NCBI RefSeq assembly: GCF_001269385.1
Contig: NZ_CXOO01000010.1
Coordinates: 62,001-126,000, forward strand
From: Limnohabitans sp. DM1
GTDB lineage: Bacteria > Pseudomonadota > Gammaproteobacteria > Burkholderiales > Burkholderiaceae_C
Reading direction: 5' to 3'
DNA length: 64,000 bases
Both the position numbers and the translations under genes were made by a program. A model generated the notes under the pieces. That model was not told the DNA's origin. It made no database searches and saw nothing but the letters and a program-made list of their open reading frames with translations. Positions 47,277 through 59,821 of the stretch are shown here, one piece after another (position 1 is the first letter of the stretch; each line of letters begins with the position of its first letter).

Positions 47277-50870
<3,594 letters not shown>

Positions 50871-50954
50871 ATCACTGCCGCGATCGCACTCGAAAGGAAA
50901 CCTGAGCCCTGCGATCCAGAAGTTGACTGCCAACGAACAGCGAATGGGTGCAGG

Positions 50955-51012
50955 GGGTGCCTGCCGGGGTGATGTGGCAAAGCGAAGCGCCTCTGAACCC
51001 CGGCAGGCACCC
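50955..51012. repeat. Constant-core, variable-stem element, copy A
   Basis: A perfect 16-bp inverted repeat (GGGTGCCTGCCGGGGT at 50955-50970; complement at 50997-51012) encloses a 26-nt core (50971-50996) that begins GATGTGGCAAAG and ends GCGCCTCTGA. The same 26 bases occur in reverse orientation at 58092-58117 within entirely different stem arms. It lies 85 bp after trxB, in the gap before rpmB. Confidence 0.9.
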
Positions 51013-51095
51013 GCAACGACTCCCCACCAAGGCTCGAACCACCCTGAATGGGTCACAAAAGACCGACCAAGGAGTCCCAGCCCCTGCTTTCTGGC

Positions 51096-51101
51096 TATAA
51101 T
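51096..51101 (+). promoter_or_regulatory. Putative -10 of the rpmB-rpmG promoter
   Basis: Perfect TATAAT in GGCTATAATCTGAGG; no convincing -35. It would give a leader of about 160 nt to rpmB containing a hairpin CCCGAATGTCATTCGGG-like (51121-51142) and a GC-rich region. Confidence 0.5.
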
Positions 51102-51266
51102 CTGAGGCTTTGCTGGAACTGCCCGGAATGTCATTCGGGATCACGGAGCCAGCGATCTGGGATACCGCCACCCATCTTGGCGAGGTGAGGCTGGAGCGCC
51201 AGGCCCCGTGCAAATCTGCACGAGACCCATCGGCACCGGCTGTTTAAAAAGTATCGGAGTGTCCAC

Positions 51267-51500
51267 ATGGCACGCGTTTGCGACGTAACGGGCAAAGGCC
51301 CAATGACGGGAAACAACGTTTCCCACGCCAACAACAAAACCAAGCGCCGGTTCCTGCCGAACCTGCAATACCGTCGTTTCTGGGTTGAAACAGAAAACCG
51401 TTGGGTGCGTCTGCGCGTCTCCAGCGCTGCTCTGCGCCTGATCGACAAAAACGGCATCGATGCCGTGCTCGCAGACCTGCGCGCACGCGGTCAAGCCTAA
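51267..51500 (+). CDS. rpmB: 50S ribosomal protein L28
   Basis: Large-subunit protein of 77 aa: [20 protein letters not shown] start, [11 protein letters not shown] and [18 protein letters not shown] end, all typical of L28. It is followed after 26 bp by rpmG, the standard pair. Confidence 0.98.
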
Positions 51501-51526
51501 ACCCAGAACATTAGGAGTCATACACC

Positions 51527-51697
51527 ATGGCAACCAAAGGCGGACGCGAAAAAATCAAGCTGGAATCCACAGCTGGCACTGGTCACTTCTACACGACCAG
51601 CAAAAACAAGAAAACCATGCCCGAGAAAATGTCGATCATGAAGTTCGACCCCAAAGCTCGCAAGCACGTTGAATACAAGGAAATCAAGCTGAAGTAA
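51527..51697 (+). CDS. rpmG: 50S ribosomal protein L33
   Basis: A 56-aa large-subunit protein: [40 protein letters not shown] and a basic end [13 protein letters not shown]. No zinc-binding cysteine pairs (the Cys-minus type). AGGAG lies 11 bp before the ATG. It is cotranscribed with rpmB and followed by a strong terminator. Confidence 0.97.
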
Positions 51698-51714
51698 TTC
51701 AGCCTGAGCCTTGC

Positions 51715-51750
51715 AACAAAAAACCCGCTGTTCACACAGCGGGTTTTTTT
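51715..51750 (+). terminator. Terminator of rpmB-rpmG
   Basis: AAAAAACCCGCTGT / ACAGCGGGTTTTTTT hairpin with a TCAC loop, 20 bp after the rpmG stop. Confidence 0.95.
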
Positions 51751-51772
51751 ATGTCCGAAACAGTGGTGGTTG

Positions 51773-51880
51773 CAGGTCGTCTGTCGAAGACCCCGACAAA
51801 TGCTTACCCATCATCCACGCCCATGTTGGCATGTACCCTTGGGACGCCAACAACGTCGGACTCTTCGAGTACCGACCTAC
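51773..51880. repeat. REP-like element, copy 5
   Basis: Two hairpins of the family: GTCGTCTGTCGAAGACCCCGAC (51776-51797) and GTCGGACTC-TTC-GAGTACCGACCTAC (51855-51880). Between them GTTGGC and GCCAAC can pair. It lies between the rpmG terminator and the desaturase terminator. Confidence 0.8.
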
Positions 51881-51904
51881 GGGGGCCGCAACCCGGAAAC
51901 CCTC

Positions 51905-51936
51905 CCCAAAACAAACAGGGCCCGAAGGCCCTGTCT
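51905..51936 (-). terminator. Terminator of the desaturase gene
   Basis: ACAGGGCC-CGAA-GGCCCTGT (51915-51934); on the minus strand followed by TTGTTTTGGGG. It lies 21 bp after the desaturase stop. Confidence 0.85.
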
Positions 51937-51955
51937 GGATGTGTTCGCTTGAAAA

Positions 51956-53170
51956 TCAGGCGGCGGTCTGACGCACGGCGCGCAGCTTTTCAGAGAAGTC
52001 ACGCAAAGCAGCGATGCCGCTTTCTTCGGCGCGGCGGCACCAGGCTTGCAGGTCAGCCGCCAACTGCTCACGCGAGTGTGAGGTGTTCAGCCAGATCTGA
52101 CTGAGTTCTTCACGCATTTGCAGCATTTTGTCGAGCACCGGGCTGGCCGCACGGGCCTGCGTGAGCTGAACTTGCGCATCAGCCGGCACCTTGGCCGCGT
52201 CGCGGTGCAACCAACGTTTGGCCGTCTGCAAGACATCTGCATCTAGCTTGAGTTTGCCGGCTTCCTCCTGCATCACAGCTCGCACATTGCGGGCATAACC
52301 CGCCATCACTTCGTAGCGGTTGGCGATCAAGGCTTCCAGAGTCTTTTCGTCGGCCACAGGACGAATGTCACCATAAGCCAAGCGGGGAGGTGTTTTCTTG
52401 ACAGTGGCCATGCCCAGGGTTTCGAGCACACGGATATACAGCCAGCCGATGTCGAACTCGTAAGGCTTGACCGACAGCTTGGCCGATGTGGGGTAAGTGT
52501 GGTGGTTGTTGTGCAACTCTTCACCACCGATCAGGATGCCCCAAGGCGAGATGTTGGTGCTGGCGTCGTGCGCCTCAAAGTTGCGATAACCCCAGTAGTG
52601 GGCTGCACCGTTGATGATGCCGGCCGCCGTGATCGGGATCCATGCCATTTGCACAGCCCAGACTGTCAAGCCAATAAAGCCGAACAAGGCCACGTCGATG
52701 ATCAACATCAGGGCCACGCCTTGCCAGGAAAATCTGGAATACAGGTTGCGCTCAATCCAGTCATCAGGCGTGCCGTGACCGTAGCGCTTGAGGGTGTCCA
52801 AGTTCTTGGATTCCTTGCGGTACAGCTCGGCGCCCGTGAACAACACGGTTTTGATGCCATGCACATGGGGGCTGTGCGGATCTTCGGCTTGCTCGCACTT
52901 GGCGTGGTGCTTGCGGTGAATGGCCGCCCACTCCTTGGTCACCTGGCCTGTGGTCAACCACAGCCAGAAACGGAAGAAGTGCGAGGGAATGGCGTGCAGG
53001 TCCAAGGCGCGGTGGGCCTGGTGACGGTGCAGGAAAATGGTGACGCTGGCAATGGTGATGTGGGTCAGGCCCAAGGTGATCAACACCATTTGCCACCAGG
53101 ACAAATCAAACAGGCCGTGGCCCATCCACTGCACCACCGCATCCAAAAAAGCCCAATCAGGCAACAACAT
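51956..53170 (-). CDS. Membrane fatty acid (acyl-CoA/acyl-lipid) desaturase
   Basis: Integral-membrane di-iron desaturase, 404 aa. All three histidine boxes are seen: HRHQAHR near residue 49, HRKHH in WAAIHRKHHAKCEQ, and HNNHH in GEELHNNHHTYP. Hydrophobic segments flank them as in DesA/stearoyl-CoA desaturases. The C-terminal ~130 residues form a helical extension. Start at ATG 53170, where a hydrophobic N-terminus begins. It probably adjusts membrane unsaturation; bond position is not predictable. Confidence 0.92.
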   Translation of the reverse strand: MLLPDWAFLDAVVQWMGHGLFDLSWWQMVLITLGLTHITIASVTIFLHRHQAHRALDLHAIPSHFFRFWLWLTTGQVTKEWAAIHRKHHAKCEQAEDPHSPHVHGIKTVLFTGAELYRKESKNLDTLKRYGHGTPDDWIERNLYSRFSWQGVALMLIIDVALFGFIGLTVWAVQMAWIPITAAGIINGAAHYWGYRNFEAHDASTNISPWGILIGGEELHNNHHTYPTSAKLSVKPYEFDIGWLYIRVLETLGMATVKKTPPRLAYGDIRPVADEKTLEALIANRYEVMAGYARNVRAVMQEEAGKLKLDADVLQTAKRWLHRDAAKVPADAQVQLTQARAASPVLDKMLQMREELSQIWLNTSHSREQLAADLQAWCRRAEESGIAALRDFSEKLRAVRQTAA

Positions 53171-53282
53171 GTCTTTGTCTTTCTCATAACGCCTGATTTC
53201 AGGCAATTTGTCGATTTTAAGTTTTTCGGCACAAAAAAGACAGTGTTTTCAACTGTCTCAATGACATTTACCGGAAAAAATA

Positions 53283-54575
53283 TTACTTTTTAACCCACGC
53301 TGCGGCAAAAAATCCGTCCGTACCGTGTCTGTGTGGCCACAGTCGCAAATACATGCCCGAAGCCTGAATCTGCCCCGAGTCGGCCATTTCTGGCGTACAT
53401 AAGCGGGCTGCATCGGGCACTTTGAGGCGCTCCAGTTCCTGGGCCACATTCAAGGGCATGAAATCCGGGTTGGCGGCGCTGAAGGCTTGCGCAATCAGCT
53501 CGTTTTCCTCGGGCAACACGCTGCAAGTGGCATACACCAAACGACCGCCAGACTTCACCAGACGCGAGGCGCTTTGCAAGATGGCTTGCTGCTTTTCGGT
53601 CAACTCTTGCACAGCTTGGGGTTTTTGCCGCCACTTCAAGTCGGGGTTGCGCCGCAAGGTGCCCAGCCCCGAGCAAGGCGCATCGACCAGCACACGGTCG
53701 ATCTTGCCGGACAGGCGCTTGACGCGTTCATCGCGCTCGTGCGCAATGGCGGCCGGGTGCACATTCGACAAGCCGCTGCGGGCCATGCGGGGTTTGAGGG
53801 CATCGAGGCGGTGGCCCGACACGTCAAACGCGTACAAACGGCCCGTGCTGCGCATGGCTGCGCCCAGCGCCAGCGTTTTACCGCCCGCGCCCGCGCAAAA
53901 GTCCACCACCATCTCGCCCCGGTGGGCGTCCACCAGCAAGGCCAGCAGCTGCGAGCCTTCGTCCTGCACCTCGATCGCGCCCCGGGTGAAAGCGTCGGTT
54001 TTTTGCAAAGCGGGTTTGCCTTGCAGGCGCAGGCCCCAAGGCGAGTAAGGCGTGGGCTCGGAAGCGATACCCGCTTGCGCGAGCTCTTTTTGGATGTCGC
54101 TGCGTTTGGCTTGCAGCATGTTCACGCGCAGGTCCAGCGTGCCGGGCTGCTGCAAATGCTCGGCCAAGTCCCAGAAATCCTCGCCCAATTGGGCTTGCAG
54201 GGCTTGGGCCATCCACTCGGGCAGGTTGTGGCGGTGCGGGGCCATCAGGGCGTCGGCGGGAATCGCGTCACAGGTCGCGAGCCATTTTTTCTCGGTGTCG
54301 TTGAGCGCTGAGGCCAGAAAATCGCGCGGCCCAAAAAAACCCAAAATCGCCAGCTTGCGCTCTTTGGGGCCGGAGCCCGAGCGGGCCAGCTGCTCGAACA
54401 GCAGTTTTTTGCGCAGCACCGCAAAAGCGGTTTCGGCCAAAGTGGCGCGTTCGCGGGGGCCCAAAGAGCGGTGTTCACGGAAATAGCGCGACACGACAGC
54501 GTCGGCGGGATGTTCAAATTGGAGGACCAGCCTGACCAGATCGGCGCAGGCGTCTAAAAGGGCTTTTGGATGCAT
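53283..54575 (-). CDS. RsmB/NOP family class I SAM-dependent RNA methyltransferase
   Basis: Probably a 16S rRNA m5C methyltransferase (RsmB-like). The 430-aa protein has an N-terminal NusB-like helical part, SAM motif VVDFCAGAGGKTLALGA, motif IV RVLVDAPCSGLGTLRRNPD and the catalytic Cys in YATCSVLPEENE. The gene is separate from fmt and so may be a paralog of the usual rsmB. Start at ATG 54575. Confidence 0.9.
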   Translation of the reverse strand: MHPKALLDACADLVRLVLQFEHPADAVVSRYFREHRSLGPRERATLAETAFAVLRKKLLFEQLARSGSGPKERKLAILGFFGPRDFLASALNDTEKKWLATCDAIPADALMAPHRHNLPEWMAQALQAQLGEDFWDLAEHLQQPGTLDLRVNMLQAKRSDIQKELAQAGIASEPTPYSPWGLRLQGKPALQKTDAFTRGAIEVQDEGSQLLALLVDAHRGEMVVDFCAGAGGKTLALGAAMRSTGRLYAFDVSGHRLDALKPRMARSGLSNVHPAAIAHERDERVKRLSGKIDRVLVDAPCSGLGTLRRNPDLKWRQKPQAVQELTEKQQAILQSASRLVKSGGRLVYATCSVLPEENELIAQAFSAANPDFMPLNVAQELERLKVPDAARLCTPEMADSGQIQASGMYLRLWPHRHGTDGFFAAAWVKK

Positions 54576-54627
54576 AGGGGTGTATTGTCCCATTCCTGCC
54601 CTTTGCCCAAAAACCCACAGGAATCAC

Positions 54628-54864
54628 ATGACCGAAACTTTGCCGCCCCTGATTGAAACGCCCAAAGGCCTCTACCATCATTACAAAGGCGGGCAGTACC
54701 GCGTGTTGGGTACCGTGCGCCACAGCGAAGACCTGCAACCCATGACGCTGTACCAGGCGCTCTATGGCGAACAAGGCCTTTGGGTGCGGCCCGCCGCCAT
54801 GTTTACCGAAGTGGTCGAGTTCAATGGCCAATTGCAGCCGCGCTTTGAGCGCGTGGGGGATTGA
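54628..54864 (+). CDS. DUF1653 domain protein
   Basis: A 78-aa DUF1653 protein: KGLYHHYKGGQYRVLGTVRH, SEDLQPMTLYQALYGEQGLW and RPAAMFTEVVEFNGQLQPRF. This beta-rich module is widespread and of unknown function. ACAGGA precedes the ATG at 54628. Divergent from the rRNA methylase. Confidence 0.88.
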   Translation: MTETLPPLIETPKGLYHHYKGGQYRVLGTVRHSEDLQPMTLYQALYGEQGLWVRPAAMFTEVVEFNGQLQPRFERVGD

Positions 54865-54895
54865 ACGTCTGATGCAGTTACGGTCAGCGCTTGCC

Positions 54896-55014
54896 CATGT
54901 AGGAGCTGAAACCACCAAGCTGCAACACGGACTCTTCGCAGGTCGGCAGCTTCAGCTTCGACATTGCAGGCTCCGGCACAGCCCCATGTCGGAGCTGAAG
55001 CCACCAAGCTACGT
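54896..55014. repeat. REP-like element, copy 6, with a 26-bp direct repeat
   Basis: CATGTAGGAGCTGAAACCAC... (54896-54921) and CATGTCGGAGCTGAAGCCAC... (54985-55010) are direct repeats differing at 2 of 26 positions. Between them is GGTCGGCAGCTTCAGCTTCGAC, the family hairpin, with GGACTCTTCG upstream. The right copy contains the purN stop codon. Confidence 0.85.
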
Positions 55015-55596
55015 GTTCTGGGTCCACAGAAATTGAGCCACGGCACGCGGATAAATCAAATGCTCTTGCGTGAGCACCCGCGCCGCCAGCATGGCGGCCG
55101 TGTCACCCGCCAGCACCGGCACCACCGCTTGCGCCAAGATGGGGCCATGGTCCAGATCGGCTGTGACCTGATGCACCGTGGCCCCAGCGAACTTGCAACC
55201 CGCATCAATGGCCCTCTGGTGTGTGTTGAGCCCGGGAAAAGCTGGCAGCAAAGAAGGATGGATATTGAGCAAGCGCCCGGCATAGTGCGCCACAAAACCC
55301 GGTGTCAGGATGCGCATGAAACCGGCCAGCACCACAAGACTGGGCGAGAACTGGTCAATCTGAACCATCAAGGCCGCATCAAACGCCTCGCGACTGGCAA
55401 ACGCCCTGTGGTCCAACACAGCTGTGGCAACGCCCTGCGATTGGGCCAAGGCCAGACCTTGGGCATCGGCCTTGTTGCTGATCACGGCGGCCACCCGCAC
55501 ATTCAAGCGTTCAGCCCAACGTTCCTGCTCGGCCGCATGCAAGATGGCCCCCATGTTGGAGCCCGAACCTGAAATCAAAATAACGATGTTTTTCAT
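55009..55596 (-). CDS. purN: Phosphoribosylglycinamide formyltransferase PurN
   Basis: Transfers formyl from 10-formyl-THF to GAR in purine synthesis. The 195-aa protein starts MKNIVILISGSGSNMGAIL; catalytic residues are in LLNIHPSLLPAFPG (Asn, His) and GATVHQVTADLDHGPI (Asp). The stop codon TAG lies inside a repeat copy, so the last residues (LWTQNT) may have been shaped by the repeat insertion. Confidence 0.97.
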   Translation of the reverse strand: MKNIVILISGSGSNMGAILHAAEQERWAERLNVRVAAVISNKADAQGLALAQSQGVATAVLDHRAFASREAFDAALMVQIDQFSPSLVVLAGFMRILTPGFVAHYAGRLLNIHPSLLPAFPGLNTHQRAIDAGCKFAGATVHQVTADLDHGPILAQAVVPVLAGDTAAMLAARVLTQEHLIYPRAVAQFLWTQNT

Positions 55597-55749
55597 GAAG
55601 TGGGCGATTATCCCTGCCCTCAAGCCTTGACAAGACTTTTGTCGCACCAAGGACAAGCCGAATCGGTCTGCGCATGATAAAAAGCACGGTCGTTTGATTT
55701 TGCTTGAACTGCACTCAAAAACACCCACCCCCAACGGAGAGATTCCCCC

Positions 55750-56931
55750 ATGGATTTGGCATTCACCCCCGAAGAGCTCGCGTTCCGCGACGAGATCCGC
55801 ACCTGGGTCAAGGCAAACTTGCCCGCTGACATTTCACAAAAAGTGCACAACGCCATGCGCCTGACCCGAGAGGACATGCAGCGCTGGGCCAAGATTTTGG
55901 GCAAAAAAGGCTGGCTGGGCCATGGCTGGCCCACGCAGTTTGGCGGCCCGGGCTGGACCGCCGTGCAAAAGCATTTGTTCGAAGAAGAATGCGCCCTGGC
56001 CGGCGCCCCCCGCGTCGTGCCTTTTGGCCCCGTGATGGTGGCCCCAGTCATCATGGCTTTTGGCAACGCCGAGCAGCAGCAGCGCTTTTTGCCCGGCATC
56101 GCCAGCGGCGAAGTCTGGTGGAGCCAGGGCTACAGCGAGCCGGGCTCCGGCTCTGACTTGGCGTCGCTGAAAACCCGCGCCGAGCGCGTGGGCGACAAAT
56201 ACATCGTCAACGGCCAGAAAACCTGGACCACGCTGGGCCAATACGGCGAGTGGATCTTCTGCCTGGTGCGCACCAGCACCGAGGGCAAGCCCCAAACCGG
56301 CATTTCCTTCTTGTTGATCGACATGAAGTCGCCCGGCATCACCGTGCGCCCCATCAAACTGCTCGACGGCGAGTGCGAAGTCAACGAGGTCTGGTTTGAC
56401 AACGTCGAAGTGCCAGCCGAGAACCTGGTGGGCGAAGAAAACAAGGGCTGGAACTACGCCAAGCACCTGCTGGCCCACGAGCGCACCAACATCGCCGACG
56501 TGAACCGCGCCAAGCGCGAGCTCGAGCGATTGAAGCGCATCGCCAAAGCCGAAGGCGTGTACGACGACATGCGCTTCCGCGACGAAATCGCCAAGCTCGA
56601 AGTCGACATCGTGGCACTCGAAATGCTGGTGCTGCGCGTCCTGTCCGCCGAAAAGTCGGGCAAGAACTCGCTCGACATCGCAGGCCTTTTGAAGATCAAG
56701 GGCAGCGAGATCCAGCAACGCTACACCGAGCTGATGATGCAGGCTGCGGGCCCCTTTGCCCTGCCCTTCATCTTCGAAGCCATGGACGCCGGCTGGCAAG
56801 GCGACTTCCCCGGCGGCACGCTGGCCAATGCGCCACTGGCCGCCAACTACTTCAACATGCGCAAGACCACCATTTACGGCGGCAGCAACGAAGTGCAACG
56901 CAACATCGTCGCCCAGACAGTTCTGGGTTAA
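55750..56931 (+). CDS. Acyl-CoA dehydrogenase, large-subunit type (PimC-like)
   Basis: FAD-dependent acyl-CoA dehydrogenase of 393 aa with FTPEELAFRDEIRTWVKANL, WSQGYSEPGSGSDLASL, VNGQKTWTT and IYGGSNEVQRNIVAQTVLG at the end. The position equivalent to the catalytic Glu of IYEGTSEIQ enzymes is Gly (IYGG), as in the paired dehydrogenases such as pimeloyl-CoA dehydrogenase. It is followed after 10 bp by a second, divergent dehydrogenase gene. Confidence 0.9.
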   Translation: MDLAFTPEELAFRDEIRTWVKANLPADISQKVHNAMRLTREDMQRWAKILGKKGWLGHGWPTQFGGPGWTAVQKHLFEEECALAGAPRVVPFGPVMVAPVIMAFGNAEQQQRFLPGIASGEVWWSQGYSEPGSGSDLASLKTRAERVGDKYIVNGQKTWTTLGQYGEWIFCLVRTSTEGKPQTGISFLLIDMKSPGITVRPIKLLDGECEVNEVWFDNVEVPAENLVGEENKGWNYAKHLLAHERTNIADVNRAKRELERLKRIAKAEGVYDDMRFRDEIAKLEVDIVALEMLVLRVLSAEKSGKNSLDIAGLLKIKGSEIQQRYTELMMQAAGPFALPFIFEAMDAGWQGDFPGGTLANAPLAANYFNMRKTTIYGGSNEVQRNIVAQTVLG

Positions 56932-56941
56932 GGAGACACAC

Positions 56942-58057
56942 ATGGATTTCGATTTTTCTGACGACCAGCAACAACTGCGCGACGCGGTGCGCAAATGGGT
57001 GGACAAGGGCTATGACTTTGACCGCCGCCGCGCCATCGTCGCAGCCGGCGGTTTTGACCGTGCCGCTTACGGCGAAATGGCCGAACTGGGCCTGACGGGC
57101 CTGTACGTGAGCGAAGATCACGGCGGCATGGGCATGGGCCCGACAGAAGCCATGGTCACCATGGAAGAACTCGGGCGCGGCATCGTGCTCGAACCCCTGA
57201 CCCAAACGCTGATTTGCAGCGCCACGCTGCAAACCCACGCCCCCGCAGCCCTGCAAGCCACTTGGTTGCCGCGCATGGCGGCAGGCGAAGCGATCGTCGT
57301 GCTGGCGCAGCAAGAGCGCGGTGCCCGTTATCAGCTGAACCGCTGCACCGCCCAGGCCAGCGAGTCTGGCGGCGCATGGGCCGTGAGCGGCACCAAAAGC
57401 GTGGTCGCCGTGGGTGACCAAGCCGACGCTTTTGTGGTGCCCGCCGCCGTCAACGGTCAAATCGCTTTGTTTTTGGTCGAGCGCAGCGCCAGCGGCGTGA
57501 GCACTCAGGCCTACGGCACACAAGACGGCTCACGCGCCGCCGAAGTGGTGATGAACCAAGCCCCCGCGCAACTGATCACCTTGAACGGCCCGGCCGCTTT
57601 GGAAGAGGCGGTGGACATTGGCATCGCCTGCACCTGCGCCGAAGCCGTCGGCGTGATGGACAAGACTTTGGCCATCACCGTGGACTACATGAACACGCGC
57701 AAGCAGTTCGGTGTGAACATCGCCAGCTTCCAGGCCCTGCGTCACCGCGTGGCCGACATGAAGATGCAGCTGGAGTTGGGCCGCTCGATGAGCTACTACG
57801 CCAGCCTGAAACTGCATGCGCCTGCTGACGAGCGCCGCCGCGCCTTGGCCCGTGCCAAGTACCAGCTGGGCGTGTCCATGCGCTTCATCGGCCAGCAAGC
57901 GGTGCAGCTGCACGGCGGCATTGCCGTCACGGACGAGTACATCGTGAGCCACTACTTCAAGAAATTGACGCAACTGGACATGAGCTTTGGCGACACCCTG
58001 CACCAGCTGGGCGAAGTGTCAGCCCGGATGCAGGAGACGGCGGGCGTGTTTGCCTGA
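56942..58057 (+). CDS. Acyl-CoA dehydrogenase, small-subunit type (PimD-like)
   Basis: A 371-aa acyl-CoA dehydrogenase fold with DFSDDQQQLRDAVRKWV, LTGLYVSEDHGGMGMG, DYMNTRKQFGVNIASFQALRH and QLHGGIAVTDEYIVSHYFKK. The chain stops without the GTSEIQ region of stand-alone enzymes, suggesting that it works as a heteromer with the preceding subunit. AAGGAG precedes the ATG. The actual acyl-CoA substrate is unknown; dicarboxyl-CoA or ring-cleavage intermediates are typical of this pair type. Confidence 0.9.
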   Translation: MDFDFSDDQQQLRDAVRKWVDKGYDFDRRRAIVAAGGFDRAAYGEMAELGLTGLYVSEDHGGMGMGPTEAMVTMEELGRGIVLEPLTQTLICSATLQTHAPAALQATWLPRMAAGEAIVVLAQQERGARYQLNRCTAQASESGGAWAVSGTKSVVAVGDQADAFVVPAAVNGQIALFLVERSASGVSTQAYGTQDGSRAAEVVMNQAPAQLITLNGPAALEEAVDIGIACTCAEAVGVMDKTLAITVDYMNTRKQFGVNIASFQALRHRVADMKMQLELGRSMSYYASLKLHAPADERRRALARAKYQLGVSMRFIGQQAVQLHGGIAVTDEYIVSHYFKKLTQLDMSFGDTLHQLGEVSARMQETAGVFA

Positions 58058-58067
58058 ATCGGGTAGA

Positions 58068-58141
58068 GCGGGACGGCGGCGCTGGCCGAGCTCAGAGGCG
58101 CTTCGCTTTGCCACATCGCCCGACCAGCGCCGCCGTCCCGC
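58068..58141. repeat. Constant-core, variable-stem element, copy B
   Basis: A perfect 18-bp inverted repeat (GCGGGACGGCGGCGCTGG at 58068-58085; complement at 58124-58141) encloses a 38-nt loop. Within it 58092-58117 is identical, 26 of 26 bases, to the reverse complement of the core at 50971-50996. Copy B lies 10 bp after the acyl-CoA dehydrogenase stop. Confidence 0.9.
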
Positions 58142-58180
58142 CTGGTGGCCAAACAATCACTCGCCATCGATCTGACATAC

Positions 58181-58218
58181 CAATGACAAAGGGCCCCACA
58201 AGGGGCCCTTTGTCATTG
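58181..58218. terminator. Bidirectional terminator between acyl-CoA dehydrogenase and brnA
   Basis: Perfect 17-bp inverted repeat CAATGACAAAGGGCCCC / GGGGCCCTTTGTCATTG with an ACAA loop, between convergent genes. T content after the stem is modest, so efficiency is uncertain. Confidence 0.75.
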
Positions 58219-58248
58219 CTCAGAACTTCCAGTGGGTTTGTCTGCGAA

Positions 58249-58542
58249 CTACACCGGGGAGTGGGCTCGCACCCAGTCACGCATGGCGTCATTCATTCGG
58301 GTCTGCCAACCCTTGCCGGTGGACCGGAAAGCTTCCAACACATCTGCATCAAAGCGGATGGTGATGCGTTCTTTGACGACCTCAGAGCGTGGTCGCCCGC
58401 GTGGCTTGAGCATCGTCTGTGCGGCCTGGGTTCCGAACAGCTCGGGCAACACCTCTGATGCAGGGCGGGCGCGGGCAAAGTCTGCATCCGTCCATTCCGG
58501 GTTGTCGTCATCTATCAGCTCTGGGTTTGGGCGTTTTGGCAT
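58249..58542 (-). CDS. brnA: BrnA family antitoxin
   Basis: A 97-aa antitoxin: an acidic N-terminal part (DDDNPEWTDADFARARPASE) that should contact the toxin, and a C-terminal ribbon-helix-helix (KERITIRFDADVLEAFRSTG, then KGWQTRMNDAMRDWV). Start at ATG 58542, 34 bp inside brnT. In BrnTA the toxin gene comes first and the BrnT-BrnA complex represses the promoter. Confidence 0.92.
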   Translation of the reverse strand: MPKRPNPELIDDDNPEWTDADFARARPASEVLPELFGTQAAQTMLKPRGRPRSEVVKERITIRFDADVLEAFRSTGKGWQTRMNDAMRDWVRAHSPV

Positions 58543-58798
58543 ATCTCTTGACCTCTCTCGAATTGGCCTTGCGCAGACTGATGACATGCACCTTGCCTTC
58601 GCGCGGCGTGAAAACAACGGCGTGCAACCGCCCCCCGATGAACCCCAGCACCTGAAATCGCCGCTCTCCATAGGCTTTGCGGGTGTCTTCCTCCATCAGC
58701 GCATGGGCCCAGTCAAGCTGCTCGACAAGCTCAAACGGCAAACCTCGGCTCGCTCTATTGGTGGCGTTTTTGGCTGGATCAAATCCAATCTTCACCAT
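58508..58798 (-). CDS. brnT: BrnT family ribonuclease toxin
   Basis: A 96-aa RelE-fold ribonuclease toxin. It shows the family pattern GFDPAKNATNRASRGLPFEL, AHALMEEDTRKAYGERRFQV, GFIGGRLHAVVFTPREGKVH and VISLRKANSREVKRY, where RKANSRE contains residues needed for RNA cleavage in BrnT. First gene of brnTA, apparently with a leaderless promoter. Confidence 0.93.
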   Translation of the reverse strand: MVKIGFDPAKNATNRASRGLPFELVEQLDWAHALMEEDTRKAYGERRFQVLGFIGGRLHAVVFTPREGKVHVISLRKANSREVKRYAKTPKPRADR

Positions 58799-58801
58799 TT
58801 T

Positions 58802-58830
58802 ATTGTATGCACATTAAATAAAGATTGCAA
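58802..58830 (-). promoter_or_regulatory. Strong promoter candidate of brnTA
   Basis: On the minus strand TTGCAA (58825-58830) and TACAAT (complement 58802-58807) are separated by exactly 17 bp in an AT-rich stretch. The -10 ends 3 bp before the brnT ATG, so transcription should begin at or next to the start codon, predicting a leaderless mRNA. Confidence 0.65.
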
Positions 58831-58861
58831 GTTTTTAGATGTTCTGAATATCCTTGATGGC

Positions 58862-59821
58862 TCACTCCGCCTCGCGCACCCGTAAAAAAGACGCAAAACG
58901 CGGCAAGCCCGAGGGCGTTCGCTCGCGGTAGCGGTAAGTCACCCAGGCCCCCACGGGCGGCGGGTTGCGGCGCTGGGCATCGCTCAATCCAGACCCCAAG
59001 GCAAAGCGCTGACCTGAAGGCATGTGCACCAGCAAAGCCCCGGTCATGCCTAGGAAACGTCCCTTGCCCTGCTGGTGGCCCACTACGAGTCCCTCCTCGT
59101 CCAGCTCGGGTTTGAGCTTGAACAGCGCGTCGGTGCGGCCGGGCTGCCAGAGGGCATCGGCCCGGTGCAGCATCAGCCCCTCGCCGCCTTGCCGCACTGT
59201 GTCCTGCAACAAGGCCTGCAAAGCGCGGGCGTCGCTCACCTCTCGCTGCGCCACGGGCATCAACCAAGGCTGCTGCGCTTGCGCCAGTGTGGATTGCAAA
59301 AAAGCCACCCGTTGGACAAACGGGGCAGCATGGCCCGGCGCGTCAAACACCAGGTACTTCACCGCCCGCCAAGCCTCGTCGTCAGGCTCGGTCTGGCGCA
59401 CCACGCCAGAGAGCCGGTCAAACGCCCCCCGCCCCATCCACAACTCGCCGTCGAGCGCGACCCGTGGCAGCGCCGACAAAAACCAAGCCGGGGCCGCAAT
59501 CACCCGGCCGCTGCGAAAACGCAAGACCTGCCCATCCCAGACGGCCCGAATGCCATCGAATTTTTCACTGACTGAAAACTCTTGTGGCGAACGCCCCGGA
59601 GGCCAAGGCATGGCCAGCTGAACGCCACTCGCGGCCCCTGACGGAACCGGACCCAAGGCCTGGGCCCAAACGCTAGGCATCAGCCAAGGCGACAAGAGCA
59701 GCGCAGACAAGCTGGCGCGTCGACCCAGGTCCGAAGTGGGTGCCTGAGGCTGGCGCGAAGCGCGGCCCTTGAGTGGGGCCGGGTCGAGGTCCGGCAAAAA
59801 GGCCAAAGATGGATGGGGCAT
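58862..59821 (-). CDS. ATP-dependent DNA ligase with signal peptide (Lig E-type)
   Basis: Minimal ATP-dependent DNA ligase of 319 aa. The adenylation motif I is EKFDGIRAVWDG (Lys nucleophile), with DGELWMGRGAF (motif III), GEGLMLHRADALW (motif IV) and FKLKPELDEEGLV (motif V), then a short OB domain; no DNA-binding domain. Upstream of the catalytic part, GRRASLSALLLSPWLMPSVW followed by AQA (about residues 33-55) reads as a twin-arginine-like signal peptide. Such exported ligases (Lig E) occur in many proteobacteria and are thought to act on extracellular or incoming DNA. Confidence 0.9.
   Translation of the reverse strand: MPHPSLAFLPDLDPAPLKGRASRQPQAPTSDLGRRASLSALLLSPWLMPSVWAQALGPVPSGAASGVQLAMPWPPGRSPQEFSVSEKFDGIRAVWDGQVLRFRSGRVIAAPAWFLSALPRVALDGELWMGRGAFDRLSGVVRQTEPDDEAWRAVKYLVFDAPGHAAPFVQRVAFLQSTLAQAQQPWLMPVAQREVSDARALQALLQDTVRQGGEGLMLHRADALWQPGRTDALFKLKPELDEEGLVVGHQQGKGRFLGMTGALLVHMPSGQRFALGSGLSDAQRRNPPPVGAWVTYRYRERTPSGLPRFASFLRVREAE

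Follow-up and report, generated by a model that had tools for sequence, protein, structure and literature searches.

A 64,000-nucleotide stretch of the Limnohabitans sp. DM1 genome (contig NZ_CXOO01000010.1, positions 62,001 to 126,000; hereafter the window) carries two hairpins in which one and the same 26-nt core is enclosed by long paired arms (Table 1). Both had been picked out by a sequence-only reading of this DNA. The inverted repeat that it described at copy 1 is there exactly, with 16-bp arms that are 100% complementary and 26 nt between them, and the cores of the two copies (sequence GATGTGGCAAAGCGAAGCGCCTCTGA) match at 26/26 positions. The perfect 18-bp repeat given for copy 2 is also present, although it forms the outer part of arms that are actually 24 nt long and 92% complementary. 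Thus, the hairpins exist as claimed but are longer than had been thought, running from about 50942 to 51025 and from about 58063 to 58146. Copy 1 looks damaged: judged against related copies, the outer parts of its left and right arms come from two different alleles, and the inner 16 bp alone pair.

Table 1. Hairpins, genes and shared sites; positions refer to the window unless a locus is named.
Feature	Position	Strand	Remark
Hairpin copy 1	50942..51025	+	84-nt unit; perfect pairing in the inner 16 bp; outer arms apparently from two alleles
26-nt core of copy 1	50971..50996	+	
Left arm of copy 1, perfectly paired part	50955..50970	+	
Right arm of copy 1, perfectly paired part	50997..51012	+	
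Hairpin copy 2	58063..58146	-	84-nt unit
26-nt core of copy 2	58092..58117	-	identical to the core of copy 1
Arm of copy 2	58068..58091		24 nt, 92% complementary to 58118-58141
Other arm of copy 2	58118..58141		
Upstream gene at copy 1	49860..50870	+	pyridine nucleotide-disulphide oxidoreductase (Pfam); trxB in the sequence-only reading
Downstream gene at copy 1	51267..51500	+	ribosomal protein L28 (rpmB)
Acyl-CoA dehydrogenase gene	56942..58057	+	ends just before copy 2
MmeI-like gene hairpins	L183 160-241 and 1501-1582		
Oxidoreductase-rpmB			shared site; window copy 1
After acyl-CoA dehydrogenase			shared site; window copy 2
Between PPIC-type isomerase and peptidase U32			shared site
Between DUF1841 and thiolase			shared site; divergent genes
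Between electron transfer flavoprotein (ETF) alpha subunit and acyl-CoA dehydrogenase			shared site
Between HpcH/HpaI aldolase and FAA-hydrolase-type protein			shared site
Between enoyl-ACP reductase and Orn/Lys/Arg decarboxylase			shared site
After glyceraldehyde-3-phosphate dehydrogenase			shared site

Chance is not a fair explanation for the two hairpins. For an 18-nt segment of the core, allowing three mismatches at most, 0.31 occurrences are expected in the window, and 2 of 100 shuffles gave at least two matches; two were found, both exact. Each of the four strands (two copies by two strands) folds better than all 200 of its own shuffles. When 20 loci of 20 kb were scanned for at least 24 of 29 paired positions around a 26-nt spacer, 17 of 398,320 positions qualified, and 13 of these 17 are members of the same family while four are not. 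A core search of the whole genome (4.9 Mb, 93 contigs) returned two exact matches, both in the window, and one with three mismatches; the third match in G000 has lost part of the stem and part of the core. The earlier observation of two hairpins is therefore real, and they are part of a larger family. Two further features lie beside copy 2: an adjoining perfect 17-bp inverted repeat with a 4-nt loop (58181-58218), likely an ordinary terminator, and a gene for a BrnA-type antitoxin (58249-58542, minus strand; Pfam PF14384).

The geometry of the hairpin was measured on 169 copies, defined as unique 106-mers with up to three core mismatches and 40 nt on each side, among the matches listed. Copies too near a contig end or containing N are excluded from this set, and since copies at one site are related, the counts are not independent. 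Watson-Crick pairing stays at 0.62-0.96 over the first 27 positions outward from the core, is 0.65 and 0.56 at positions 28 and 29, and drops to 0.17 at position 30. The fitted stem end falls at 25-31 in 149/169 copies, with a mode of 29 (70 copies); three stems are longer (35-38) and 17 shorter. The unit consequently measures about 29 + 26 + 29 nt (about 84 nt) whatever the sequence of its stem. Read on the core-plus strand, the left arm is rich in G (51%) and the right arm in C, and both flanks are C/A-rich. G-tracts recur near distances 2-4 and 14-17, which makes the stems somewhat related to one another, and the sequence-only reading was a little too strong in calling them unrelated, although they do differ between places. 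The same recurrence, together with the sharing of places across species, leaves stems derived from the target without support: there is no sign of a core that builds hairpins from the DNA into which it inserts.

Beyond the stem of about 29 bp comes a 5 x 5 internal loop and then a small inner hairpin, often with a GNA triloop. Copies with the core are called type A here, and a second sub-type of the loop type B. The internal loop reads GATTT/TATGA in general and GATGT/TCTGA in the window copies; its sequence would allow a stack of G.A, A.G, T.T, a single Watson-Crick pair (T-A or G-C) and T.T in the folded strand. At loop positions 4 and 23, type A has a G-C pair where relatives have T-A; two representatives have C-G at 6-21. 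The inner hairpin is replaceable, with the GNA triloop often kept (a script flags it in 37/51 distinct loops, two of which were judged spurious). Mini-hairpins of the form d(GCGNAGC) show unusual stability as DNA. PMC10527192 names d(GCGAAGC) together with one relative. Folded as RNA, five members reach -62.4 to -77.1 kcal/mol.

The stem changes while its pairing is kept. A core that mostly lacks inverted repeats is not what we found, as 150/169 copies keep at least 21/29 Watson-Crick pairs, and neither are the stems a plain conserved repeat, as these 150 well-formed copies hold 27 stem alleles. Among 53 representatives with less than 80% arm identity, picked blind to pairing, the consensus fold has 31 pairs, of which 29 are changed on both sides. 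With the full written structure, 85.8% of cells pair in these representatives; shuffling lowers this to 60.9% and sliding one side to 37-47%. Their covariation score is 0.604, where shuffled controls reach 0.170 and slid controls 0.116-0.155, and 29/29 outer pairs are doubly changed. Related rows can beat shuffles without any structure, and the slid controls keep this relatedness. Arms were also exchanged between species within each of nine sites: pairing is 0.78-0.975 with a copy's own arms and 0.58-0.88 with exchanged ones. Comparisons within places gave 17,797 same, 6,438 doubly compensated, 2,659 one-sided but paired and 1,645 broken cases, in a set of 146 copies with at least 24/29 pairs, a filter that favours pairing. 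At one place, loci L032 and L033 have wholly different stems that are nevertheless paired. The idea of a constant core within a variable, paired stem is thus supported, with the amendment that the core is constant within this sub-family alone and that the loops of relatives differ.

Five copies (L035, L060, L066, L078 and L029) have left and right arms seemingly from different stem families, by recombination between cores or by misassembly. Site-specific inversion between paired cores was considered as a source of such copies and is not favoured; three of the five come from one metagenome bin, and the products would lose the hairpin. That bin (L035, L060, L066) is titled Akkermansia muciniphila and holds Limnohabitans-type loci, which probably points to a wrong title or a mixed bin.

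Which strand folds can be judged from the mismatches. In the stem alleles, G.T cells outnumber A.C cells by 129 to 34 on the core-plus strand (150/169 copies and 27 alleles, under a filter that counts Watson-Crick pairs only), and the ratio is 60:17 where core and marker gene point the same way and 62:14 where they are opposed. Because this excess of G.T holds whichever way the gene runs, the core-plus strand appears to be the folded one, and it seems to be kept foldable independently of the message strand. A structure acting in RNA, as the sequence-only reading had proposed, is accordingly not established, since the core-plus strand is kept foldable even when antisense to the marker gene.

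The family is not confined to the window. It spans Limnohabitans and some other genera of its taxonomic family, as judged from family, order and genus searches that are samples, the 40-genome searches being made under stricter filters. With up to three mismatches, the core occurs in 8/399 genomes of the taxonomic family and in 4/141 genera, with four of the six genomes drawn from its own genus positive. A scan of a species-genome collection gave at least 119 stretches, mostly titled Limnohabitans, Comamonadaceae or Burkholderiales. A covariance model built from 14 copies (R1) matched 29/40 genus genomes, including 18/25 good ones, at E values up to 1e-3, and 24/299 genomes and 14/126 genera of the taxonomic family at E up to 1e-6. 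A second model, covering more loops (R2), matched 35/40 genus genomes (21/25 good ones), with 1 to 32 matches where present, 8 in the window's genome and 19 in G430; in the order it matched 6/300 genomes, all six of the same taxonomic family. Outside type A, the usual loop is GATTT-[inner hairpin]-TATGA with a variable inner hairpin, and both types of loop coexist in some genomes. To see whether type B loops occupy type A places, 21 loci from outside the type A set were read (15 of G000 and G087; L173-L178); six had marker matches, five of them to paralogues and the sixth (L268) to the ileS-type gene, which lies several kilobases away from site S7. Viral contigs, scanned three times with exact patterns, yielded no stretch, phage records not being searched, and no plasmid match was found for one relative. 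Rfam gave nothing at gathering score for 50000-59000 and six relatives; over the hairpins microRNA models alone appeared, at a best E of 3.1e-5. In the open literature we found no paper describing a design of constant core and variable stem.

Flanking DNA sorts the 169 copies into 10 shared sites (with 32, 27, 25, 20, 13, 12, 11, 9, 4 and 2 copies) and 14 singletons. Relative to the marker gene the core runs with it in 82 copies and against it in 69, with 18 of the 169 left without an assignment. Gene surroundings were read with a home-made gene caller that overlooked short genes such as rpmB, and 11 copies lie at contig edges. The position just behind a stop codon, which the sequence-only reading had remarked on, is not special: copies occur in every gene arrangement, in both orientations and in some cases inside genes. 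All 49 pairs of copies less than 400 nt apart in the 169-copy set are inverted (31 divergent, 18 convergent, none tandem), at few places and with gaps of 13-125 nt, and pairs outside this set are mostly inverted too. A mixed pair stands at the enoyl-ACP-reductase site of G430, where a type A and a type B-like hairpin (L287 and L303; C2:1710237 and 1710491) lie about 250 nt apart in inverted orientation. At wider spacing, one contig (L070) has three same-direction copies within 8 kb (293, 1598 and 7257, all plus). The oxidoreductase-rpmB site was read in 29 loci of 30 fetched, after a search of 40 genomes; the hairpin is present in 12 of these 29 genomes and absent in 17, and in four of the 12 the core is reversed. 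Two of the four reversed cores sit between arms like those of a forward copy (G415/G189 and G433/G425), and at one site the outer arms change as blocks.

Copies also occur inside genes. Twelve of the 169 type A copies lie within an open reading frame (ORF) predicted by the home-made caller. In valS, 20 of the 30 Limnohabitans loci read (L325-L354; 40 genomes searched) carry a type B-like insert and 10 do not, and all length differences are multiples of three. Across the valS hairpin the frame stays open in L267, a valyl-tRNA synthetase by Pfam with the hairpin at 1501-1582, and in L178; the insert differs between species. In many Limnohabitans, it is a hypervariable linker of valS that holds the type B-like hairpin. 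Two inverted hairpins stand in the open frame of an MmeI-like methyltransferase gene at three loci of other genera (L183, L184 and L186), where the identity rests on Pfam for L183 and was called alike by eye for L184 and L186.

Several known systems resemble these hairpins in part. The attC sites of integrons are recognised as folded single-stranded DNA by their structure, with a stem sequence that is largely free; the hairpins described here would share such a fold, have a similarly free stem, and differ in that their constant part is the loop. Double-hairpin elements of fungal mitochondria are small mobile hairpins as well, although these are organelle elements made of two hairpins, unlike ours. 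With repetitive extragenic palindromic (REP), BIME and REPIN sequences the hairpins share short palindromes, intragenic units, inverted dimers and complementary stem changes. The parts of PMC3733652 consulted describe REPs as short palindromes, often in inverted dimers and with some intragenic units, and its Table 1 gives a stem of 5-13 bp and a loop of 2-20 nt; complementary stem changes are on record for REPs in a passage of PMC2817692. In contrast, the Limnohabitans stem is about 29 bp long (25-31 in 149/169 copies) and its loop region 26 nt, the constant part is a structured 26-nt loop rather than the stem or a GTAG/CGTC tag, and a genome of the genus sample holds between 0 and 32 model matches, with stems that differ by place. 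Rickettsia palindromic elements (RPEs), of about 150 bp, occur in frame inside protein genes and carry a conserved peptide, according to the part of PMC10969869 available to us. The presence in frame in valS and the MmeI-like gene is alike, whereas the unit here is about 84 bp, its stem sequence is free, no element sequence or peptide is conserved, and most type A copies are intergenic.

Taken together, we tentatively propose a palindromic element of REP/RPE type whose folded single strand, DNA being favoured, would be read by a trans-acting factor, and which is mostly fixed in place, a reading that we consider quite possible though we give it somewhat less than even confidence. When single, the core-plus strand would fold into the hairpin, and the factor would read the loop and the length of the stem, not its sequence; the core would therefore be frozen, and the stem would drift through paired changes. 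The element probably spread once by transposition and would in Limnohabitans now be mostly inherited in place. Single-stranded DNA is slightly favoured over RNA as the recognised form, since orientation is free, the hairpin can flip in place, neighbours are nearly always inverted, some copies are in genes and GNA triloops recur; recognition of single-stranded DNA would also liken it to REP/IS200-type elements. As a separate proposal, the family may be a new class of genetic element read by its structure, in which a host or selfish factor reads the fixed internal loop and measures the stem of about 29 bp on one folded strand while ignoring its sequence, with sub-types A and B behaving as if each had its own partner; at about ten places shared across the genus, the stem would then be rewritten repeatedly with shape, loop and inverted neighbours preserved. 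This is possible although doubtful.

Several observations speak against the proposed DNA element. No partner protein was found, and recognition is therefore something that we infer. The preference for G.T cannot distinguish between RNA and DNA and may owe something to a mutation bias specific to one strand. In three genomes with weak skews, 16 hairpins were lagging-like and six leading-like, the wrong way for a simple fork-template model, in a scoring (L305-L324) that is a hint only, 2/22 having been scored by hand from the printed skew; at least two of the hairpins chosen as single for it (G433 C1:440571 and C1:657966) are accompanied, no more than 300 nt away, by another match, which is type B-like. 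The balance of orientations is partly built in, as the four pair sites necessarily contribute equally to both orientations (43 of the 82 and 43 of the 69). Nine of the 169 copies pair at fewer than 20/29 positions, several of them with recombinant arms or near contig ends, and because six of the nine have an exact core, core and stem do not always decay together. Two close pairs outside the 49 run in the same direction (G418 C15, 27490 and 27612; L205), and these pairs and the broken-stem copies with exact cores lower our confidence slightly. The TATGAG motif is lost in 10/20 valS inserts. Neither a target duplication (by eye) nor a recent jump was seen; alleles without the hairpin exist at valS and at the oxidoreductase-rpmB site, where presence and absence can be old insertion, loss or exchange.

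The alternative that the hairpin of the core-plus strand acts at the RNA level, in sense or antisense transcripts, for example as an untranslated-region structure recognised by a protein or nuclease for message stability or processing, would account for the strong covariation, the tolerance of G.U-type pairs and the very stable RNA fold, and for the fact that no more than the 12 type A copies mentioned above fall inside a predicted ORF. Tandem G.A and U.U pairs are, moreover, common RNA motifs. However, we consider it somewhat unlikely, given that orientation to the marker gene is mixed and the G.T preference persists in the antisense class, so that the message strand is not the one kept, that the core is reversed at one site, and that the short gaps between inverted neighbours leave little room for two promoters; in addition, some copies lie within coding sequence and no Rfam family reaches threshold. 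The main non-functional rival is neutral arm copying, in which the palindrome is a replication hot spot, template switching copies arm onto arm, which would keep stems perfect and make them seem to covary, and selection acts on the core alone. A core reversed between similar arms does suggest arm recombination or switching, and the block-wise change of outer arms and the exact core in most broken stems point the same way. Yet such upkeep predicts as many G.T as A.C relative to the core, where we found 129:34, and it predicts stems of any length, where most copies are near 29 bp; it is thus improbable.

An ordinary REP/BIME family moved by a resident Y1 (RAYT-like) transposase, that is, one akin to the REP-associated tyrosine transposases (RAYTs), appears very improbable. 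Inverted dimers and intragenic units are REP features in the parts of PMC3733652 consulted, and 39/40 genus genomes have a Y1_Tnp match. The family nevertheless fails on both tags and stem length: near the hairpin base, counting both strands and sides in the 169 copies, GTAG occurs 11 times and CGTC 10 times, and the stem has 29 bp instead of 5-13. More frequent than either tag is GGAG on the opposite strand (37 right, 18 left), which is what C-rich flanks should produce. No R1 match was found in 19 Y1_Tnp loci scanned of 20 fetched, and no cognate RAYT was found; at the four Y1_Tnp loci examined the recurrent palindrome is a different one. On these grounds RAYT/REP finds no support as the partner. 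CGTC REP elements also occur without a RAYT, as stated in part of PMC3733652, so the absence of a RAYT is not decisive alone. The Y1-transposase-like loci in question (L240, L242, L243 and L252) have short palindromes of their own, TTTAATTGGGATC and its partner. Least probable of all is a transcription terminator or attenuator with a conserved loop. The hairpins are strong and GC-rich and often directly follow a gene, but a T tract is absent (T is 14% in the 11 nt on each side of the hairpin in the 169 copies), copies occur between the divergent DUF1841 and thiolase genes and within genes, and a terminator would need neither a fixed loop nor a length of 29 bp.

Sequence conservation is the usual basis for defining a repeat family. 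In these hairpins it is the loop and the geometry that are conserved, and an ordinary search for repeats would pick up little more than the 26-nt core. Should the fold be recognised, the hairpins at about ten orthologous places in many species would amount to a natural covariation experiment, and one could test directly which protein reads a hairpin by its loop and the length of its stem. In valS, a palindromic element lies in frame within an essential gene. Once the partner is known, there is a fair chance that the family will turn out to be something more unusual than palindromic repeat elements.

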